DNA of 64,000 nt, taken from NCBI GenBank assembly GCA_956465555.1, contig OY101118.1:2191751-2255750 (forward strand), in the 5' to 3' direction. Shown here piece after piece: positions 31,576 to 60,184 of this stretch (its first letter is position 1; every line of letters begins with the position of its first letter). This DNA is from Nitzschia sp. pyKryTriq1. Taxonomy: Eukaryota > Bacillariophyta > Bacillariophyceae > Bacillariales > Bacillariaceae. Under the pieces are notes generated by a model. The model ran no database searches. It was not told the origin of the DNA and saw only the letters and a program-made list of their open reading frames with translations. The position numbers and the translations under genes are program-made.

Positions 31576-32883
31576 CTACACAGAAAGGGTCCCCTTGCTG
31601 CTAGCGGTTTGTCCTGCACGTCGCTTGTCCACCATGGCGCAAACATGTAGGGCTTTCCCCAGGGCTTGGGCCGTAGCCAACACGGATTCCTTTACGGTCG
31701 CACCTGCCTTGGTTTCAACGATATGGACGGTCATGCGACCATTCATCACCAGTGAATCCAGAACATGCTCCAACATTTCACAGCTCAAAGGACTACCAGC
31801 AGCACCATTTCCATTAGTAATCGTCTCGGGGTCAACGTACTCTTCGCGCCCTAATGTTTCGTGCAAGTTGTGACCCAAATAGGGACGATTGCTCAAATCC
31901 ATTGTGACTTCCACCTCGGCATCCCCCAGTTTCGCCTTGGCAAGCCCCATGCGATTCAATCCTGCCTTGGTCCCCAAAGCTTGGGTCAAACACTGACCGA
32001 TCGCAATGCTCACATCTTCTGCCGTGTGATGATCGTCGACCCACAAATCACCCGTACATCGGATGTTCAATGTTAAATTGGCGTGTTCTGCCAAGACAGT
32101 AAAAAATTCATCCAAAACAGGAACTCCTGTTTCAACGGACGTATCTGCGCAGGAGCCATTCAGTAGTAAATGAACCGAAATAGAGGTTTCCTTGGTCGAT
32201 CGTTCCACTTTGGCTTGTCTTGAGAGCGCCACACTGGCATGATCGTTTTCACTCTTTGACGCAAAGACATTTGGATCATCCAAATACTGACGCAAGGCCC
32301 GAGAAAAAGCCTTGAAAGAAGACTCGACAATATGATGACCGTTCTCGCCCCGGATCTTGCGAAAAGAAACCTCTAGTTGGGACGATTTCGCCAAGGCGCT
32401 CCAAAAACTCTCCACGGCAAAGGTTTCCCACTGTCCAATCTTACTTCGACCCTTGCCTTTGGGATAACTTCCGTAGGGAGCCAATGTATATTCCACTAGG
32501 CGACCCTCCTCACCCGCCGCCGATTTCCGAATGCAGCACTCCACTAGACCTTCATCCAAAGGACAACAGAATCTCGATTCAGCACCATCCACTTTGTCAC
32601 TCAGACGCAATTCAGTGTACATGGCCGATCCCAGTGCGGCACCCACCGTTTCACACAATTGCACTTGATTAGTAGTCGCCCAGCGGTTCTTGTTATCAAT
32701 GGGGGCAAGTTCTTCGTCATTATTCAAATTCAATTCCAGATCCACTTGGAGACCAACACCAATCTGGGCGTGAGAATTGAATTGATCGAGCATGTGATCG
32801 AAAAATCCAATGCCCGTGAGAATGGGAACTCCCGCCTTGGCTTCATTGACCACCTTGAGGTTGGAGATTGAGAATGGAGACAT
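31576..32883 (-). CDS. Tandem imidazoleglycerol-phosphate dehydratase (two complementary IGPD domains)
   Basis: 435 residues from the ATG at 32883 (MSPFSISNLK); the frame is open upstream but that part is unlike the family. IGPD catalyses the dehydration of imidazole glycerol phosphate in histidine synthesis and is normally about 200 residues, with metal-binding motifs around DHML, DDHHTxED and HHIIE. Domain 1 (about 12-205) has GIGFFDHMLDQFNSHAQ (25-41) and GENGHHIVESSFKAFSRALR (179-198) but has RWATTNQVQLCETVG (67-81) where DDHHTxED should be. Domain 2 (about 232-435) has WVDDHHTAEDVSIAIGQ (281-297), GLNRMG and the C-terminal AGQTASSKGTLS, but has VLDEFF for LDHML and ATVKESVLATAQAL for the HHIIE box. 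The motif sets are complementary, so one active site may be shared between the two domains. Confidence 0.88.
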   Translation of the reverse strand: MSPFSISNLKVVNEAKAGVPILTGIGFFDHMLDQFNSHAQIGVGLQVDLELNLNNDEELAPIDNKNRWATTNQVQLCETVGAALGSAMYTELRLSDKVDGAESRFCCPLDEGLVECCIRKSAAGEEGRLVEYTLAPYGSYPKGKGRSKIGQWETFAVESFWSALAKSSQLEVSFRKIRGENGHHIVESSFKAFSRALRQYLDDPNVFASKSENDHASVALSRQAKVERSTKETSISVHLLLNGSCADTSVETGVPVLDEFFTVLAEHANLTLNIRCTGDLWVDDHHTAEDVSIAIGQCLTQALGTKAGLNRMGLAKAKLGDAEVEVTMDLSNRPYLGHNLHETLGREEYVDPETITNGNGAAGSPLSCEMLEHVLDSLVMNGRMTVHIVETKAGATVKESVLATAQALGKALHVCAMVDKRRAGQTASSKGTLSV

Positions 32884-34194
32884 GATGATGATGATGAAAT
32901 TTTCGTTACGTAGTAGGAGTAGATGAGAGAAGCGAATAATATAACGACAACACCGTCGCACGGGTCCTGGTACTGTTAGATGGATAGAATGGCGAAGATT
33001 GATGCATTCCACATTCCACAGCAGTTGCAAGGTCTGCTGCCTCTCGCCTCGCCAATCGCGTGTTCCGAGTTCATCGTTCATCCGTCATCGTCAAACGTTT
33101 TGGAATTTTTTCTGCGGTTGATGGGGATGAAAAAAAGTTTTGCGGCACAGTACTCATTTGTGTAGATTCTACAGAGCGTACCCGCTGCGTAGACGTGTAC
33201 CAGAAACTCCTAGTCGCACGACTCCTCCGAATCATGGACTCAATTGCTCGTTTCGCCGCGTTACCGCGCAATTTCCCCTCTACCACTACGGGTCCAATCT
33301 CTCCAGCTCTACTACGGGTACAGTACGTAGAGACTGGTCACCATACAAATGGGTTTAGTCAAATGAATCTTGTGAACGTGTGGTCGACAAGTTAAAGTCA
33401 TTTGGTCGGTCGGTTTACTCTACTTACTAGAGAGGGTAAACATTTGGAGATCTTCAACGTATTTTCGGTGTGACATTCACTTGACAGCGTATCAGCAGTA
33501 CCGGTTCATATTTCTTCACGAGCACGCGCGTCGACCCGCCAAACGATAATCGACGGTTATTTCTGTGAGACGTAAACGAAATCTGCCGTAATGTGAACCC
33601 GCCAGGTCCCGGTACGAACGAACTGGGACTCGTGCGAAGACTACTAACTGTACCTGTACCGGTACACCCATAAATCCAATTATCTCCGATTAGAGGCGTT
33701 GGAGAACCGCGAACGCACCTCATGCTCGCTTGATGAGTTCGCACGGTCGGACATTCGTGCTATACTATGGTATTGCGAGGAAAATGGATCCCCGAGAAGG
33801 GCCTTTCATTCTTCCGGATCTCCGAATTTTAATAATGGTATACCCGGTATACATATGGTCACCATCCATTATCAACAAGCCGAGAGGGATAGGATAGGCG
33901 CAGAGAACCATACCCAACGATAGGCGCACTAGGTAGAGCTACTCTCTACATACCGGTAGCGAACCAAACAGAATACAGAATGCATGCGAACGGTCGGTGT
34001 TCTTCTGGTCAAAGTCTACTCTACTGTTGTGCGCTATTAAAAAAATTGATGCCTATTACCCCGTTTTATTTGCACGATACTAAAATTTATGGAATTGTAG
34101 ATTGATTCTTCCTCCTAACGGTACCCGCCCCACCACGCACGCCAAGAAGCCACAATTTCCAAAAAGCAAACGCAATTCAAAAGACCTACCAACA
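32884..34194. other. Intergenic region between divergent genes
   Basis: 1.3 kb with no supported gene. Palindromic words are dense: ACCTGTACCGGTACACCCAT near 33650 and GGTATACCCGGTATACATAT near 33837-33855. Confidence 0.4.
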
Positions 34195-40681: not shown

Positions 40682-42691
40682 ATGACGTTGAAGGTCTTGA
40701 CGGTCGGCGATGGGGATTTGACACTATCATTGGCCTTGGCGAGGGCGTATGGCGACAAACATGTTGCAGTGACTGCCTCCGTCTTGGATTCAAAGGAAGC
40801 CTTGCTGTCAGCATTCCCTAGTGCTCCACTGGCCGAACTAGAACGACTGCACGTCCCTATATTGTTTAGAACCGATGCCACTCAGCTCCATCGAAACTAT
40901 GTTCGAGATCACTGGGATCTGGTATTGTTCCATCACCCTCATCTAGGTCTGGCATCTCTAGGTCAAGATGAGGCAAAACACGCGATTCGTCACCACCAAC
41001 TTATATGCCACTATCTACATTCGGCCACGCAAGTTTCCAAATGTGTTCACATTTGTTTATGTGGGACGCAACGGGAAGCGTGGCGTTTGGATGAAGCAGC
41101 CGAACGGCAAAACTTGACGATGGTGCGAGAAATTGCTACTGCGGCGCCCTTTTCCAAAATATGGACTGACGAGGAACTTGTTCCCAACAACTCAAACTCG
41201 GATTATGCTGCACCTCGACGGTATCGCAATGGGAAACTGGGAAGTCGCCACTTTTTAGGAAAGTATGGATATCGACATCGCCGTACGGCTGGAGAACAAT
41301 ACCATGGAGGGTCATCGGACATGAATGTCGCGGGGTCAATGCATTACGTGTTTTCTTCCGGATCAACAGAGACTATCAGGAATACACGATCACGCGATGG
41401 GAATGGGTCATCAGTTACTACCTGTTCCGTTTGTGGGGCCACGTTTTCCTCTCAGAAGGAGTTGGACGATCATTTGAAAGCACCAGCAGTCCCACAATTG
41501 GCTGAATTAAGCAACTCCGTCGCGTCGAGCTCAGAAACAGAGAAAGGAAAGGAGTCAGCATCAGCACTGAACCCAGAAAAGGACATCACAGAGCCTCCAA
41601 TAGCAGCTGCAAAATCCACTCAAGCTTCTGCGCCCAATAATTTCAAGAACTATGAGCTGGAAGTCAATGAGCCTCACGACGGAAAACGTCTACGGTCTTT
41701 CTTACAGCACAACACCACCATGTCCAAACGTCAAGCAGAAGTAGCGATTCAAAATGGAGCCGTGCTCGTTGATGAAATCCAAGCTTTGGACTCGAGTCGA
41801 ATATTGAAGCCTGGAATGGTCGTCACTGTCCTATCGACTGATATTGGGGACGAGACAAGTTCGAGCTCCAGTCTGAACAAAACTACTACTATCGATGTTT
41901 CTTTCCGTCAGGAACCTTTCTTGGTAGTGGAGAAACCATCTGGCATGCGAACCAAGGGAGCCATTCCAGGAGCATTAGAATATGTTGTTTCGCAACAGGA
42001 AGGAATGTCGTATGAAAGCCTTTCGAAGTTGGATACTTCTTGTCCCGGTTTGTGTGTCATGATGTCGCAAGCTTATCTGAAACAACAATCAGAACCTATC
42101 ACCATTCAGCACTCCCTATTAGTTTTGGTTCATGGCCACGTCCCGGACGATTGGTTCCCACAACACCAACTTTCCATGACTCTCCAACGCAAGTGGAAGC
42201 AAAAGAAGCGAAAGTATAACCCTGAAGAGGAAGCTGCTGATAACGTCTGGCCGCCTGACACTTCAACGATCACGATTGTTCCATTGGAGCGAACCGACAA
42301 TGATACCTCATCGGGTGACACTGCATCTGGTGCGACATCCACATGCCTTTCGACCATTTGTATTCAAACAGACCATCCCTCGGCCGCCAGTATCTGCCAG
42401 TGGATGCGCCAGCTAGGTTTTCCTGTAGTCGGCGACATGAATTGCCGCAGAGAGTATCTACACTTGAAAAGATCTATTCGCAATCGCATCAAGAACAAGC
42501 TATGCATTGTCTGCCACCAAGTACAGTGGCATGCTGATGATTCTTCTCCCGGTAGAGGACCTGTAAAAGTACCTCTATCGGACCCCGGTATCCCAGATAA
42601 GTTGTCTGCAAAGTACTGGGAAGAAAATTTTGGCGCAGCCGATCCAGAAGCAGCAAGCCAAGAGTCGTCGACAGGAAGCTTAGTGGACTAG
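40682..42691 (+). CDS. BMT5-like rRNA methyltransferase fused to an S4/RluA-like pseudouridine synthase module
   Basis: 669 residues, single exon. Residues 1-205 match the BMT5/DUF2431 Rossmann methyltransferase family (yeast Bmt5 makes m3U in 25S rRNA): VLTVGDGDLTLSLALARAYG (SAM loop), VTASVLDSKEALLSAFPSAP, VLFHHPHLGLAS, and the end block RRYRNGKLGSRHFLGKYGYR. Residues 248-264 have CSVCGATFSSQKELDDH, which is C2H2-like but with only one clear His. Residues of about 322-390 look like an S4 RNA-binding domain (KRLRSFLQHNTTMSKRQAEV, AIQNGAVLVDE, LKPGMVVTV). Residues of about 405-640 resemble RluA pseudouridine synthase (PFLVVEKPSGM; SKLDTSCPGLCVMM in place of RLDxxTSGL; HPSAASICQWMRQLGFPVVG). 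The Asp of the RLD box is kept but Thr-Ser is changed, so activity is uncertain. Confidence 0.85.
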   Translation: MTLKVLTVGDGDLTLSLALARAYGDKHVAVTASVLDSKEALLSAFPSAPLAELERLHVPILFRTDATQLHRNYVRDHWDLVLFHHPHLGLASLGQDEAKHAIRHHQLICHYLHSATQVSKCVHICLCGTQREAWRLDEAAERQNLTMVREIATAAPFSKIWTDEELVPNNSNSDYAAPRRYRNGKLGSRHFLGKYGYRHRRTAGEQYHGGSSDMNVAGSMHYVFSSGSTETIRNTRSRDGNGSSVTTCSVCGATFSSQKELDDHLKAPAVPQLAELSNSVASSSETEKGKESASALNPEKDITEPPIAAAKSTQASAPNNFKNYELEVNEPHDGKRLRSFLQHNTTMSKRQAEVAIQNGAVLVDEIQALDSSRILKPGMVVTVLSTDIGDETSSSSSLNKTTTIDVSFRQEPFLVVEKPSGMRTKGAIPGALEYVVSQQEGMSYESLSKLDTSCPGLCVMMSQAYLKQQSEPITIQHSLLVLVHGHVPDDWFPQHQLSMTLQRKWKQKKRKYNPEEEAADNVWPPDTSTITIVPLERTDNDTSSGDTASGATSTCLSTICIQTDHPSAASICQWMRQLGFPVVGDMNCRREYLHLKRSIRNRIKNKLCIVCHQVQWHADDSSPGRGPVKVPLSDPGIPDKLSAKYWEENFGAADPEAASQESSTGSLVD

Positions 42692-51466: not shown

Positions 51467-52585
51467 ATGAATCTGCAGTTTCGACTTTCGGCATCTATTA
51501 TTGCGTCGCTGGTATGGAATAGCTTATCTTTTCAGCTTTCGAGGCTGCCAGCAACATTCCACCACTCACGAAAATTTGTCGCCGCTGCCACTGCTCTCCC
51601 TGACATCACCACTCCCTTATCTCCAACTACATTCGCTGGGATGGTCGAGCGGGGACTTTTGGAACGGTCCGATGAGAAGGATATTCAACGAGTATTGGCA
51701 TCGTGGCGGTTGCTGGACAAGGATTATTACCACAAAGAATATGTTGGAGAACCAGGCAAAGAAAACGAGAGTGATATGCTGCAAGAGTGCCACTCGTACG
51801 TACCGGGTCTCTCGATCAAACCATTTTGGAATGCAAAAGATTTTGATTGGGCGAACTACTTGGAATCAAAATATCCTGAGATTCGAAAAGAGTTCGATTC
51901 TGTCAATTCCAATATGAAGAAATTACAAGAGGAAGGGAATAACATCTGGGCAGGGGCTTTGACAGAAGATGCAAGCTCATATGGAGTAGGATGGAAAACA
52001 CTGGGTCTGATGAATCGAGGAAGGTGGGATCCTGTCAACGTCAACTTGTTCCCAAAGACAGCCAAAGCCGTTCACGAGAGTGGAATACCAGCGACAGAAG
52101 TCTTTTTCGCCTCCATGACCGGGCCTTCGGACATAAAAAAGCATAGTGATTTTACGAACTTCGTCTTGACATCCCATTTGGCAGTGGATATTCCCTATAG
52201 TGGTGAGAATAAATGCCGCATCACAATCGGTGACGAGACGAGACAATGGATCAACGGCAATGTGATGGTGTTCGATACGTCACTTATTCACGATGCAGTC
52301 AACGAGAGTGACAAAATGCGATATATCCTGATGTTTCGAGTCTGGCATCCAGACTTGACTCAAGTCGAACGAGATGCTTTGCAATTTACATATGATTGCC
52401 TGGAACTTCCTGGTTTGGTCAGCGACAACCCGGAGGAACGTTATGTAGCCGAAGAGACTGCCAAGAGTGTTCGAGCATTCCCAGCTATTGAATCGAAGAG
52501 CAAGGGTTCTGGATTCGGAGAAAAGAAACCGAGGGGGAAGAAGCAAAAGAACAGTGGTAAAACAAAAAAAGGCTTTGGAGTATAA
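51467..52585 (+). CDS. Aspartyl/asparaginyl beta-hydroxylase-family Fe(II)/2-oxoglutarate oxygenase
   Basis: 372 residues, single exon. The N-terminus (MNLQFRLSASIIASLVWNSL then SFQLSRLPA) looks like a signal sequence with Phe near the cut, so plastid import is possible. The catalytic domain lies at about residues 150-305 and matches the AspH family: ASMTGPSDIKKHSDFTNFVL, LTSHLAVDIPYSGENKCRIT, IGDETRQWINGNVMVFDTSL, IHDAVNESDKMRYILMFRVW and HPDLT. Iron ligands would be H226 and H275, with R285 for 2-oxoglutarate. Animal AspH has His-x-Gly at the first site and no carboxylate ligand; here the residue is Asp (HSD, D228). The substrate is unknown. The tail is Lys/Gly-rich (KKPRGKKQKNSGKTKKGFGV). 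Confidence 0.85.
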   Translation: MNLQFRLSASIIASLVWNSLSFQLSRLPATFHHSRKFVAAATALPDITTPLSPTTFAGMVERGLLERSDEKDIQRVLASWRLLDKDYYHKEYVGEPGKENESDMLQECHSYVPGLSIKPFWNAKDFDWANYLESKYPEIRKEFDSVNSNMKKLQEEGNNIWAGALTEDASSYGVGWKTLGLMNRGRWDPVNVNLFPKTAKAVHESGIPATEVFFASMTGPSDIKKHSDFTNFVLTSHLAVDIPYSGENKCRITIGDETRQWINGNVMVFDTSLIHDAVNESDKMRYILMFRVWHPDLTQVERDALQFTYDCLELPGLVSDNPEERYVAEETAKSVRAFPAIESKSKGSGFGEKKPRGKKQKNSGKTKKGFGV

Positions 52586-52817: not shown

Positions 52818-55800
52818 TTATATCTCCTGCCTTCTTGGTTTGCGCTTAGCATATGAAAGGCTCTTCTCTGACCGCAGTACCTTCGGCATATCACGCGAAT
52901 TCACCCGAACAGAGACAGGGGGGAGACTGCTGGGCTCATCTCCCCGAAGCTGAGATTTTAGTTCATCATAGCGTAAGAATAATTCTTCCCACGAAGAAGA
53001 GACCCGCGTTATCTCAACTTCGCTTCGTTGAACAATCTCCTTCGTGCTTGCGATATCGGTGGCTCTTGCTGAAACCATGAGAGTAGCCAATTTACGGGGT
53101 AAGCTGCCAAGTTGGGATCCATAGGAGAGGATTGCTGAGTATAATGGGCCTTCACATGGCAGATTTCGAGCCATGATAGAATCCAGAACAAACAACAAGA
53201 ATTGGAACTTCGAGCTCGATTCTTTATCCAAGTGAACCACCGGTGGAAGGCCACCAGTATTCTTTCTTGATGGGAATAATTTAAGGGTTTCGAATATTGA
53301 TTCATAGATGGCTTTGGAAGGAATCGCGCCCGTGCGCAGTATATCGCCGAATACATCTCTTGCCATGTCGTAGTCGCCACGTTCCAGCGTGCTCTCCATC
53401 ATGCTCTTGTACGCGAACATGCGCTGCTTTCCTGACATTGCCCGGGATTCCTTACTTCTCAAAATCTCAAACGCTTCTTTCACCTTTCTGAACCCACATA
53501 GAGCCTGGATGCCTTGTAACATTGCATACCCATCAGGCTTGGAGATGCGTTTGTAGATATCATAGGCAAGATCCGGCATTCCAGAAGCGAGACATGCTCC
53601 TACGAGCGCGGTCATTGTCTTCAAATTTGGCGAAATACCAAGACCATTCATTCTTGCCAAAAGTTCCAGCGCTCTTTCATGGTCTGCCACCGCTGCAGCA
53701 GCGCTGATAGCAGTAGTGTATAGATAGACATTTTCAGTCAAGGCAACAGTTCGGCGGTCACTGCAAGCTGTCTCGAACAGCGTTAGGGCTGCACTTGGAT
53801 TTCCAGTATCCAAGAGACCCTTCATTAGCAGGCCATAGGTCATGGAGTCGGGCGCAACCCCACTTGACTCCATTTGAACGATTACTTTCTTTGCTGCAAC
53901 AATTTTCTTCTGTTCACACAGCGACTTGATGACTGTGTTAAAAAGAATGGGATCAGGCGAGACACCTTGTTCCTTCATGTCATAGAAAAACTCTTCGAGG
54001 TCGCCTTCAGACATAGCAACAATGGCCTTAACGAGAGAGGTGTAACTGAATTTATCAGGTGTGATTCCAACACGTTTCATGCCGTAGAAAACATCTATGG
54101 CTTCCTCAAACCTTCTGCGGCTCGTCAGTGCGTTAATGATGACATTGTAGGTGACGAGGCTTTTGGAAGGAGCTACTCCGCCGTTGCGTCCAGGTTCGGT
54201 CATGGAGTCGAAAATCTGCATCGCGAGGTACAAACTATTCTCGGTCTTTGAATCCGCAAGGGCAGAAATCGCAATATTGTAGCACATCGTATTGGGCTGC
54301 AGACTCCCCTCTGGCCCGGTCCCCGGCCAGGATCCGACCTTCAGACCGTCCACAGTCGAGTCGTCTCTGCCTCCCAAGGCTGCCAGCACTCTACGGACCG
54401 ATGATAAGTCGCCATTCATTGCATGTGCCTTCAGGAGGGCGCTGGCAGTGTAATTATCCAAAGCAACGACGTTTGGTGCTAAAAGTGCATCGTTTTTGCC
54501 TTTGATAACAACAGTGGCCTTTGCATCGGAACCACTGGCATGAATTCCCACCGCTGCTTCAAAAACTTCGATGGCTTTCTGTGGTTGGCGACAGGACAGA
54601 TACGCGCACATTATCATCGACAGGGTCACGGCGTCCACTTTAGTACCGGCGCTTGCCAGAGCATCCACAACTTTATCCGCGACAAGGCCAGGAACAGCAT
54701 ATTTGTTGACAAATTTTTCCTTCGTTGGTTCGTCCGCTACCGTATAGCGTTTGATCACTTCACGGCATCTTCTTAACAATTCTTCTTGTTCCACGGCTGG
54801 CGCTGCTCCTGTAGCTGCTGTCACTTTTCTTGATCGAATTGTGACGGGTTCGTCTGACATTGGCGTATTCAAATCGACTGGTCGTTCAAATCTAAATGTG
54901 ATTTGCTGACCCGGCAATCGCGAAGTGACAGCGGATATCACACCTTCCACAGTTGAGACCGGCCACATCCGATCACCCAAAGAGGAATCCACTGCCAAAA
55001 CTCTGTCACCGACCTTCACCGCATACTGCACCAGAGTTGATGCACTGTCCGTAAATCCTGTAACCTCCACATAACCATCCTCAGATTCTGGAGAAACATT
55101 GTGTACGTCAGAATCAACAGCCGAAAGGACACAGTAACACAGCAACACATGAAATAGTTGTCATTTTTCTTTTCTTACCTTTCAGCTCCAGTCCGATCGG
55201 ACGTGTCAGCGTTAGCTCAAACTGATTGTCCACCGCTTCGCCAGGACGTTGTAGTTCGAATTGAATACTTGTCGAAACCGCCTTTCGCGATTGGAGTACA
55301 GAGCGGACGCCTTCCAGCGATGATTTCGGCCACCGCTGCGAGCCCATCGTCGCTGAAGTACTCTTGATGATATCACCGGGTCGAACACCCGCAGCCCATG
55401 CTGCGCCATCCTTCGTCACAGAAGAGACAACCAATCCTTGGAATTCTCCCGTAATGCGTCGCGAGAGACTCACTTCGTCTAGTCTCTCCACTCCCTCTTC
55501 TTCTTGGATAGCATCGGTTTTGAGGAACTCCAACGAGTCAAGATCCAGCTCGAGTCCTTCAAACTCCCGACCCTTATTAACTTGGCAAGCAGACATGCCC
55601 ATGGATAGAACCTGCGACTTTTCTTCGATGAAGGACGACTTGACCAAGGGGAGTGTGACTGTGTAAGTTTTGGTGCGTTCTTGCACCCTTTGTTGTCTCA
55701 AGGCAATCATTTCTTCGTCTGTATCAGGTTCGTCTCGCACCGCATTGGCAATCGAATCACGTGCTGCATTGAACGCCTCTCCAATGATTTCTCCGTTTTG

Positions 55801-57114: not shown

Positions 57115-58395
57115 ATGTTGACCATGATGTTAACCAATCGGTCTGTGTCAATCTTCTGTGGACGAAGAGCATCCTTGCAGTTTCAGAATCACCTTCGGCG
57201 GTCAGCACGGCATGTGAACAACATACCCTGTCCATCTCGCTTGGTCTCTACTCTATCGGGGGCTGATTGTTGGGAATCCATGACCGATTCCACAAGGAAA
57301 CTGGCGGAAAATATCATGGCAAAAAATGGTAAGAAGGTCGACGACCATGAGATGAACAAGAGCAACAATAATAGCAGCAATCCTTGGTTGCACAAGCGAG
57401 TGGCGCTCAGCAGGGCCATTACCTTGATGGAATCCAAAAATCCAAAGAAAAAGCAACAGGGAGACTACCTCCTGACCTATCTGTTATCACGACACGACAT
57501 GCCTGAGCCGCCCGCGCCACCCACCACTCTTCGCGTCGGTTTTGCCGGGCCGCCTGGGGCCGGAAAATCATCCCTTCTCGAGGCGTTCGGCATGTATCTA
57601 CTGGAACAAGATCCCGATCTTCAACTGGCAGTGGTCTGCATTGATCCTTCGTCGGGTATATCGGGGGGCAGTATTCTGGGTGATAAGACTCGCATGACAG
57701 AACTCTCTCGCCAGGACCGTGCCTATGTGAGACCCTCTAGTAATTCTGGCGTCTTGGGTGGACTCGCAGCATACACGGACGACGTTGTGACCACACTTGG
57801 AGCAGCAGGATACCCATTGGTATTGGTCGAGACAGTAGGGCTTGGACAATCAGAAATTGAAGTCTTTGAATCAGTGGATATTCTTGTACTATTGTTGCCA
57901 CCGGGAGGCGGCGATGAATTACAGGGAGTGAAGAAAGGAATTGTGGAATTGGCCAATATTTTGGCTGTCACCAAAGCGGACGGGAATTTGCTGGCAGCCG
58001 CCAAGGCCACAGCGGCCGACTACCAAGGCGCGATAAGAGTGTTACAGCAGAGCAGTTCTAGTGGCGGTGATGGTGAGGTCTGGAAACCTCGCATCCTGTT
58101 GACGAGTTCAGTGACGAAGGACGGATTGGATAAGCTCTGGCAGAGCATACAAGATTATAAAAATTTTCTGCTGAAATCGGGTACATGGGAAAAGAAGCGA
58201 ACAAAGCAGGCAAAGTATTGGATGTGGAAACAATTTACTCGAATGATGCAACATCGAATGCAACAAGATCCAGAGTTGGCAGAACAAGCAAACCTTCTGG
58301 AATCCGAAATGCTAAAGGGCCACCTGACACCACGGGTGGCGGCGCAGGAATTACTTGATGGTGTGTTTCGACAGATAGAGAAAAAGAGCACCTAG
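57115..58395 (+). CDS. MMAA: MMAA/MeaB-type GTPase, chaperone of B12-dependent methylmalonyl-CoA mutase
   Basis: 426 residues, single exon. The Arg/Ser-rich start (MLTMMLTNRSVSIFCGRRAS, LRRSARHVNN) fits mitochondrial import. The GTPase core spans about residues 95-355: RAITLMES, then VGFAGPPGAGKSSLLEAFGM (P-loop 145-152), VVCIDPSSGISGGSILGDKT and RMTELSRQDRAYVRPSS (switch regions), VLVETVGLGQSEIEV, and NILAVTKADG (base-recognition TKAD). The C-terminal helices (KQFTRMMQHRMQQDPELAEQ) match the dimerisation arm of MeaB. The family loads and protects adenosylcobalamin on methylmalonyl-CoA mutase, so a B12-dependent propionate route is implied. It could also act on a related mutase. Confidence 0.94.
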   Translation: MLTMMLTNRSVSIFCGRRASLQFQNHLRRSARHVNNIPCPSRLVSTLSGADCWESMTDSTRKLAENIMAKNGKKVDDHEMNKSNNNSSNPWLHKRVALSRAITLMESKNPKKKQQGDYLLTYLLSRHDMPEPPAPPTTLRVGFAGPPGAGKSSLLEAFGMYLLEQDPDLQLAVVCIDPSSGISGGSILGDKTRMTELSRQDRAYVRPSSNSGVLGGLAAYTDDVVTTLGAAGYPLVLVETVGLGQSEIEVFESVDILVLLLPPGGGDELQGVKKGIVELANILAVTKADGNLLAAAKATAADYQGAIRVLQQSSSSGGDGEVWKPRILLTSSVTKDGLDKLWQSIQDYKNFLLKSGTWEKKRTKQAKYWMWKQFTRMMQHRMQQDPELAEQANLLESEMLKGHLTPRVAAQELLDGVFRQIEKKST

Positions 58396-58493: not shown

Positions 58494-60184
58494 CTAACTA
58501 ATCACACAGTTACCGTCCTTTCCCCCTCTGGTAGTAGATGGTGCCGTAGCAATCCTCCCTGGTGGAGGGGCAGGCGTCTCCGCATGCTGTCTGAGCGAGG
58601 CCCGTTCGCGCCGTTGCATGGCAACTGCCAACTTTCGTGACGCCTCTTCATCAGCCGTCGGATTGTTCCTACGCGCTTGCTCAGATTCCTCCTGCCGCTG
58701 TAGCTGTAGAGCCAACATCATATCTCGCTGTTCCTGTGAGGGGGGTTCCGCGGGTATCCCCATAGCAACAGTGGGCATTGCCGGTGGCCTTGGTTGAGGA
58801 GAAGACGAGACCTGCTGTGGTGCTGGCGATGATGGCATTCTGTTTGTATTGCTCGCTGAGGCCGATTGGGAGCGAGTAGCCCCAGTAGCTGACGTGGAGG
58901 AAGGAGGCGGAAAAATGGATGCTGCTGCACCTTGAATAGTAGTGCCAGCCTGCCGCACCGTCTCACTTAACGAGCTCATCTGCTGTTCAAAGGCACCAAG
59001 ATAAGAACCACTTGAAGTACTGTTGGTATTCTGAGGTATCACTGGCATAGGATTATCAGGATTGAGCCTGTTGTATTCATGCAGGCTGGCTTGTCGCGCC
59101 GCCTCCATCTCAGCTTCGTCTGAAGTGGCACTAGCTGTACCAGGCCTGAGAGGAGCAGAGGACCGAGGAGCAGGGTGATTCTCTTGACTAAGCTGCAGGG
59201 CAAGTTGATAATCCGCTTGGGATTGTAGATTGCCAGTAGCGGAGGCACCACCTTGTTCATGAATCGCAGACGGGGGCTTGAATGTGTCGGCAACATACTC
59301 AGTGTCGCCGTCAATAACGTCCAACTTTTCCCAAATAACAGTGGATACGTTAGCATATCCAAGATCAGTCACTAACAAATACAAAAGTCCATCGTGCTTC
59401 GTAAGCGTATTGAAATGATTGTTCCTGAAAAATACCACCATTTGCCCATTTTTCATATATTCATGCAGGACTGTCAAACCATACTGCGTCAGTTGATGGC
59501 CGGATCGTTCGAGAAAATGTTTGACGATAGATCCTTGCGTGGCCTTCGTAGACAACGCATCATGATCCGCCGAGATGGCACCCGAAGAAGGATCAACATT
59601 GTGTAGGGTCGTCGCCGCATCGTTTCCTTCGATCACCATGTTGATAAGTTGATTGTATGTTTGATTTCCAATGAGATCATATTCTTGTGCATCCGGTTCT
59701 AATAGCCAGCCGTGCACAAGTTCAATGTGCAACAAATCGAAGGCATTCAAATGCATTGTATACTCTACACCTGTTGGACCGGCTGTAAATTTTGGGTTGA
59801 CATCCATTCCGAATTGCAAACTAGGAAAGATCGTCAGAACTTCCTGTACATGATGATCCGCCTGACCCGATTGATGGTTGCTCAATATTCTTTCTGCCAA
59901 GACATTGACGAGCTGGTCGATAGTCACCATTCCCGCCCCCACGCAATTGGACGGTAAGTTGATTGTACCCTTCAAGATCAAACAATTTGCTGCCGCCAGC
60001 AGTGGGCAAGGTCCATTTTCATTTTGTAGAAGGATGTGGTGATCTTTCTCCTAATTGAATCCAGGGAAAAGAACGAGAAAATACCTCTGTCAGGCAAAAA
60101 ATCATCAATTGAAAAGTAACGTTCCTCACTTGACTTTTTTATTTTCCTCACCTTGTATCGGATTTGCTTCAATTGATATGCCAT
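58494..60184 (-). CDS. MINDY-type (FAM63) deubiquitinase with CaaX end
   Basis: Exon 1 is only 33 nt (60152-60184, MAYQLKQIRYK, donor GTGAGG); exon 2 is 58494-60050 after AATTAG. The 101-nt intron is in phase 0, giving 529 residues. The join rebuilds the MINDY catalytic start: KEKDHHILLQNENGPCPLLA, with C26 the expected nucleophile. The catalytic domain continues to about residue 260 with FPSLQFGMDVNPKFTAGPTG, AFDLLHIELVHGWLLEPDAQ, NQTYNQLINMVIEGN and VVFFRNNHFNTLTKHDGLLY, which carries the catalytic His. Two ubiquitin-interacting-type helices follow (DYQLALQLSQEN and DMMLALQLQRQEE). The C-terminus is NCVIS, a CaaX-type prenylation box. MINDY enzymes trim long K48 chains. A membrane anchor by prenylation is inferred. 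Confidence 0.92.

Follow-up and report, generated by a model that had tools for sequence, protein, structure and literature searches.

IGPD, a dehydratase of histidine synthesis also known as HisB, HIS3 or HISN5, is canonically a single domain of ~200 aa with all active-site residues on every chain, and 24 such chains make 24 sites. Structures are represented here by those of Arabidopsis (4MU0-4MU4) and Acanthamoeba (6FWH). As set out in the structural sections of the Acanthamoeba paper, the ordinary enzyme is a 24-subunit shell, said to typify the known IGPDs as a whole, in which each di-Mn site lies between two chains, A and A', and involves a third, C (PMC6029752). The parts of a Medicago study that deal with architecture concur, with the metals bound by two chains and the phosphate by a third; they report that metal removal yields trimers in other species, which was not observed in Medicago, and they term the reason for 24 subunits unclear (PMC10978614).

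The division of labour between the chains is known residue by residue from the active-site descriptions in these papers. In Acanthamoeba, Mn1 is held by H67 of chain A' with H40, H162 and E166 of chain A, and Mn2 by H66, E70 and H138 of A' with H163 of A; the phosphate contacts are K170 (A), R92, R114, S191 and K193 (C), and D101 (A) (PMC6029752). The corresponding account for Arabidopsis gives the ligands as H47, H73, H74, E77, H145, H169, H170 and E173, labels Gln51A, His55A, Lys177A, Arg99C, Glu21A and Glu173A by chain, and finds the E21Q variant inactive (PMC4509728). The two numberings were equated in this analysis by an offset of 7, or of 8 in the C-loop. On these published descriptions, and in Arabidopsis numbers, chain A supplies H47, H169, H170 and E173, chain A' supplies H73, H74, E77 and H145, and chain C binds the phosphate. 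A survey, in the portion that treats sequence motifs, reported HHxxE in both halves of all the IGPDs it covered (535/535; PMC7284861).

Fusions are known among histidine-synthesis genes. The bifunctional HisNB (PMC10978614) and the seven-activity histidine fusion of Acanthamoeba (PMC6029752), as described in the relevant passages of those papers, join different enzymes, whereas the gene described below joins two copies of one enzyme. Sites shared unequally between homologous domains are described, in the sections on catalytic architecture, for the C1/C2 pair of mammalian adenylyl cyclase (PMC3591389) and for heterodimeric soluble guanylate cyclase (PMC5918993), each with one complete site at the domain interface and one pseudosymmetric site in which key residues are missing. 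These cyclases appear to offer the closest mechanistic analogy to the tandem IGPD. They are dimers of another family and another chemistry, in contrast with the 24-subunit, metal-assembled shell of IGPD.

The window (the whole stretch of 64,000 nucleotides analysed here) holds an IGPD gene that departs from the canonical plan. On the minus strand, the frame spanning 31576-33081 runs uninterrupted over 501 codons; translated from the ATG at 32883, it yields a protein of 435 aa, organised as follows.

31576..32883, minus strand: tandem IGPD gene, 435 aa in a single ORF, stop included; start region and architecture are matched by a second tandem, L005, at positions 344-1621

32215..32883, minus strand: domain 1, residues 1-223 including the linker, source of the putative chain A half-site

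31579..32214, minus strand: domain 2, residues 224-435, source of the putative chain A' and chain C residues

32221..32280, minus strand: inter-domain linker, residues 202-221, replacing the C-loop of domain 1; poorly conserved, with pLDDT <50 over residues 204-220

Instead of one ~200-aa domain per chain, a single ORF thus holds two domains, and it does so in both tandems. When the halves were scanned separately with the Pfam IGPD profile (PF00475; curated cut-off 27), domain 1 scored 83.4 bits and domain 2 scored 125.2 bits; with the open frame, this bears out the claim of the preliminary description that the 435-residue protein comprises two IGPD domains. Both domains also fold as IGPD in AF2 models, the input alignments of which contained IGPDs. 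Compared directly by BLASTP, the domains reach only E = 0.078, and their kinship is recognised because both match IGPD profiles and structures.

The likeness to canonical IGPD lies in the fold of each domain, and the metal ligands, phosphate-binding residues and C-loop of the canonical enzyme are matched by the two domains taken together: one set of residues is shared by two domains. Residues were called from a 15-row alignment comprising the domains of both tandems, Arabidopsis (for numbering) and ten bacterial and archaeal IGPDs. The ten had been retrieved with domain-2 patterns from 12 loci, of which L008, nearly a duplicate of L007, and the partial L012 were omitted from both alignment and tree. 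The diagnostic segments are these.

32770..32799, minus strand: domain 1 DHMLDQFNSH, residues 29-38; Arabidopsis Mn ligand H47, with Q51 and H55, retained

32647..32688, minus strand: domain 1 NRWATTNQVQLCET, residues 66-79, at approximately the position of DDHHTxED, where the alignment is uncertain; histidine ligands lost; RLANNNQVDLCGA in L005

32551..32562, minus strand: domain 1 PLDE, residues 108-111; Arabidopsis D108 retained

32431..32466, minus strand: domain 1 basic loop YPKGKGRSKIGQ, residues 140-151; 12/12 identical in L005, absent from the canonical IGPD rows of the alignment

32407..32409, minus strand: domain 1 Ser159, at the Mn-ligand position of Arabidopsis H145; lost

32311..32340, minus strand: domain 1 GHHIVESSFK, residues 182-191; Mn ligands H169, H170 and E173, with K177, retained

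32185..32196, minus strand: domain 2 TKET, residues 230-233; Glu232 corresponds to Arabidopsis catalytic E21, inside a 19-residue run identical in L005

32101..32115, minus strand: domain 2 LDEFF, residues 257-261; ligand H47 lost, His to Glu

32014..32037, minus strand: domain 2 DDHHTAED, residues 283-290; Mn ligands H73, H74 and E77 retained

31951..31953, minus strand: domain 2 Arg311, Arabidopsis R99, chain C

31885..31887, minus strand: domain 2 Arg333, Arabidopsis R121, chain C

31765..31767, minus strand: domain 2 His373, Arabidopsis Mn ligand H145, retained

31666..31704, minus strand: domain 2 GATVKESVLATAQ, residues 394-406, at the position of GxNxHHIIExxFK; lost

31579..31623, minus strand: domain 2 C-loop RRAGQTASSKGTLSV, residues 421-435; S199 and K201 retained, 15/15 identical in L005

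Over the whole protein the eight Mn ligands are complete, four per domain, in both tandems. The A-chain metal ligands H47, H169, H170 and E173 are all in domain 1 (4/4) and none is in domain 2 (0/4). More broadly, domain 1 of either tandem has the full A-chain set H47, Q51, H55, D108, H169, H170, E173 and K177; at the same positions, domain 2 has E, V/L, H/E, G, K, E/D, L/M and Q/K (window protein/L005). Overall, domain 1 keeps 8/9 A-chain residues, the exception being Glu21. Domain 2 of both tandems holds all four A'-chain ligands (H73, H74, E77 and H145). H73, H74 and H145 are missing from domain 1 in both, and the E77 column reads E in the window protein and G in L005, in a region where the alignment is uncertain. 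Domain 2 of each tandem likewise holds 4/4 of the C-chain residues R99, R121, S199 and K201; in domain 1, R99 is kept, R121 is A/S, S199 is N/S and K201 is F/W. The HHxxE motif is therefore not found in both halves of either domain, domain 1 being devoid of the N-half motif and domain 2 of the C-half motif. In the ten bacterial and archaeal IGPDs all eight ligands are present, except that H145 is Glu in 2/10.

All of the motifs named in the preliminary description were recovered: FDHMLDQFNSH, GENGHHIVES and NRWATTNQVQLCET in domain 1, and WVDDHHTAED, SSKGTLS and LDEFF in domain 2, in which GATVKESVL replaces GxNxHHIIE, LDEFF replaces LDHML and HHIIE is absent. Several positions go beyond that description. 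At the C-half ligand His (Arabidopsis VEHFF), domain 1 carries Ser and domain 2 has kept the His, which is the outcome expected from the split. Only domain 1 retains the water-binding Asp of PLDE. Of the residues with which chain C holds the phosphate, R121, S199 and K201 are all preserved by domain 2 but not, as a group, by domain 1, and both domains have R99. The catalytic Glu of TKET occurs in domain 2 only.

The most probable account of this pattern is that the sole recognisable IGPD of the genome arose through tandem duplication with fusion, after which the two copies underwent reciprocal loss, which would leave one composite site and one dead site per chain. The duplication and reciprocal loss proposed in the preliminary description find support in three properties of the retained residues: they sort by structural chain, recur in the second tandem and are under purifying selection. 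Two residues sit less comfortably with the composite-site account, as both domains have R99, and Q51 is not invariant, being Ala in 3/10 of the bacterial and archaeal rows.

The second tandem was found in a genome scan that returned 58 matching stretches, 13 of them encoding relatives; one of the 13 is the tandem L005 (L005/L026, contig CAJQPF010000061.1, 3,569 bp), and it is the only tandem relative in the comparative sample. It too is a single-ORF tandem IGPD, 71% identical to the window protein and with the same residue split. The contig is filed under a Flavobacteriales bin (MAG), the tandem being eukaryote-like, and by eye it carries no other clear gene; one minus-strand frame resembles what we take to be a retrotransposon fragment. 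Relatives of domain 1 among 395 genomes of the class to which the bin belongs (E 1e-20) were confined to the L005 contig. The most probable origin of the contig is contamination by a diatom or a relative of one. The tandem may otherwise have been acquired by the bacterium of the bin, a reading for which some room is left by the lack of any other IGPD match in that bin (both of the 2 matches, from 3 candidates, lie on the L005 contig). Searches of viral contigs gave no relative among 7 pattern matches with the window protein and 112 with query A1.

L005, on a contig independent of the window, repeats both the one-ORF architecture and the division of residues, which makes chance or assembly error very unlikely. 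An assembly or gene-model artefact, such as two genes or a pseudogene wrongly joined, would fit the fact that the gene is known from one assembly, and is nearly excluded by the single open frame without a stop, the independent contig with the same tandem and losses, and purifying selection on both domains. As the source of the tandem, an assembly artefact was rejected on the strength of L005.

In a domain tree, a check suggested in the preliminary description, the two copies of domain 1 group together and the two copies of domain 2 group together, each with 100/100 support; one plant row is the sole other eukaryote, and the long domain 1 and domain 2 stems call for caution over long-branch effects. 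The domains group by type and not by tandem, and duplication and fusion therefore predate the divergence between the tandems.

Purifying selection has acted on both halves. Between the two tandems, pN/pS is 0.34 for domain 1 (pN 0.257, pS 0.755) and 0.19 for domain 2 (pN 0.133, pS 0.708), with synonymous sites saturated. Mean identity in 9-residue windows is 0.954 at the 17 retained positions and 0.447 at the 17 lost positions; the windows overlap, and the tally places E21 of domain 2 among the retained positions and R99 of domain 1, despite its Arg, among the lost. The difference was equalled in 0/425 circular shifts. Ten runs of at least 9 residues are identical between the tandems, and together they contain 16/17 retained positions, all but His373. 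Two of the ten are without a retained position, one of them being the basic loop YPKGKGRSKIGQ. This loop of domain 1 sits near the canonical R121 loop, and may have assumed phosphate binding or a role in domain contact.

The gene appears to be the only one of its kind in the genome. Searching the 40.65-Mb, 20-contig assembly (the window lies in contig 4) with the IGPD profile and with the Arabidopsis IGPD protein returned matches only to the two domains of this gene, and no second IGPD; a hidden separate IGPD was rejected by these whole-assembly searches. The separate intact copy that the preliminary description had regarded as most damaging to its proposal is thus absent by both profile and Arabidopsis query. 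HisG, HisD and HisI (PRA-CH) have one match each in the assembly, and the presence of these enzymes implies that the IGPD step is needed. From uniqueness and pathway context, we infer that the tandem has IGPD activity (EC 4.2.1.19, dehydration of IGP). Eight matches to the silicon-transporter family, which we take as a marker of a diatom or close relative, were found in the same assembly; five of the eight lie within ~240 kb on one contig (C1:79892-317295), four of them within 42 kb.

The opposite reading is that the protein is a degenerate IGPD without dehydratase activity, a pseudoenzyme or moonlighting protein, the step being performed by an unrecognised enzyme or replaced by histidine uptake. 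Such a protein would account for the fact that neither domain alone has a complete site and for the misplaced Glu21. We consider it improbable: this is the sole IGPD found in a genome with HisG, HisI and HisD, and the retained residues, which show strong conservation, add up to a full di-Mn site.

If the protein is a composite-site enzyme, its assembly would be constrained in definite ways. Domain 1 would be confined to the role of A, and domain 2 to those of A' and C; contact between domain 1 and domain 2 would complete a di-Mn site and contact in the reverse sense would yield a dead one, giving one site per two domains as opposed to one per domain in ordinary IGPD. Chains A and A' would lie in neighbouring trimers, to judge from metal-dependent trimer assembly, and a plausible shell would have domain-1 trimers alternating with domain-2 trimers at the corners of a cube. 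An alternating shell of this kind would have 12 working and 12 dead sites, with its symmetry lowered from 432 to 23. Whether A and A' are taken as a 2-fold or a 4-fold pair, computed colourings of the cube yield 12 complete sites and 12 dead ones. When chain C is made the trimer mate of A, at most 8/12 sites could be complete, and the prediction from the model is therefore that C and A' are trimer mates.

The tandem model has a pTM of 0.79, against a TM of ~0.4 when one domain is matched, which suggests that the two domains pack in a definite arrangement. The structure matches listed for the tandem model were taken up by domain 2, and the model of domain 1 was searched separately.

The two halves might instead be released from a precursor by cleavage, forming a hetero-oligomeric IGPD for which the fusion is incidental. 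Poor conservation of the linker, and the very low confidence with which it is predicted, would suit a cleaved segment. Both genes nevertheless keep one frame through it, and its last residues join the conserved start of domain 2 within the identical run 222-240; we consider cleavage improbable.

The location of Glu21 is the main difficulty for a plain composite-site model, as far as the alignment can tell. In canonical IGPD, catalytic Glu21 shares a chain with Glu173; here Glu173 is in domain 1 and Glu21 in domain 2, the Glu21 position being Pro in domain 1 and Glu in domain 2 of both tandems. E21 belongs to chain A and is needed in Arabidopsis, yet only domain 2 has the Glu, and either a strand swap or a substitute is therefore required. 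An upstream exon that would give domain 1 its own Glu21 was considered and rejected: the ATG directly precedes S(S)PF in both genes, the upstream stretches are dissimilar, and no AG stands immediately ahead of the ATG (by eye).

Hypothetically, the first strand of domain 2 could be swapped into the sheet of domain 1 and so complete the A half. Such a swap is plausible because the TKET strand comes directly after the end of domain 1. The alternative is that Glu21 has been replaced. A composite-site enzyme would then work without a swap, the role of Glu21 being substituted or dispensable and the TKET of domain 2 being kept for folding or assembly; this is a sub-case of the composite-site reading, with which its odds overlap, and we put it at somewhat short of an even chance. 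The domain-1 model aligns from its residue 1 at Arabidopsis residue 19, and domain 1 therefore has a first strand of its own; the Glu forms part of a VERxTxE block and is present in 10/10 bacterial and archaeal rows, so that general reasons may keep it. Set against this are the inactivity of Arabidopsis E21Q, in the mutant data of that study (PMC4509728), and the position of Glu232 in the longest run identical between the tandems, 19 residues (222-240) at the start of domain 2, although chance alone would quite often give domain 2 a run of at least 17 (P ~0.33 under independent sites).

Returning to the composite site with a swap, its fullest form would combine a 12-site mixed shell of 23 symmetry, a catalytic Glu on a swapped strand, a cryptic, interlocked circular permutation inseparable in function, and dead sites free for regulation. 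We regard this combination as speculative and, taken as a whole, rather unlikely.

The tandem is an unusual architecture of a known enzyme. In the literature on IGPD and histidine synthesis, the matches listed, in a coverage with subscription papers mostly outside it, include no tandem or reciprocally degenerate IGPD. A review of diatoms, in the part concerned with this pathway, gives two ORFs for the IGPD step in P. tricornutum and one in T. pseudonana, without sequences (PMC3901274). Two further papers, in the passages where the enzyme is mentioned, do so only in P. tricornutum expression data or as a yeast marker. If the composite-site reading is true, the split motifs in fused domains are a natural experiment in which an obligate homo-oligomeric metalloenzyme has become an obligate hetero-domain one, and the question of why there are 24 subunits becomes testable through symmetry and metal counting. 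There is possible relevance to IGPD inhibitors in diatoms, where half of the sites would be expected to be dead.

Among the neighbours, a scan of 10/29 other ORFs of at least 200 aa in the window gave Pfam matches for 6, and none of these matches was to a histidine enzyme. A MeaB match (270.6 bits) lies at 57115-58395 on the plus strand; MeaB is a GTPase linked with methylmalonyl-CoA mutase. On the minus strand are a MINDY deubiquitinase match (58494-59981, 209.3 bits) and a pentatricopeptide-repeat protein of 776 aa (52818-55148). The plus strand further carries matches to an aspartyl/asparaginyl beta-hydroxylase (51467-52585, 128.1 bits) and to a BMT5-like rRNA methyltransferase (40682-42691, 76.7 bits).
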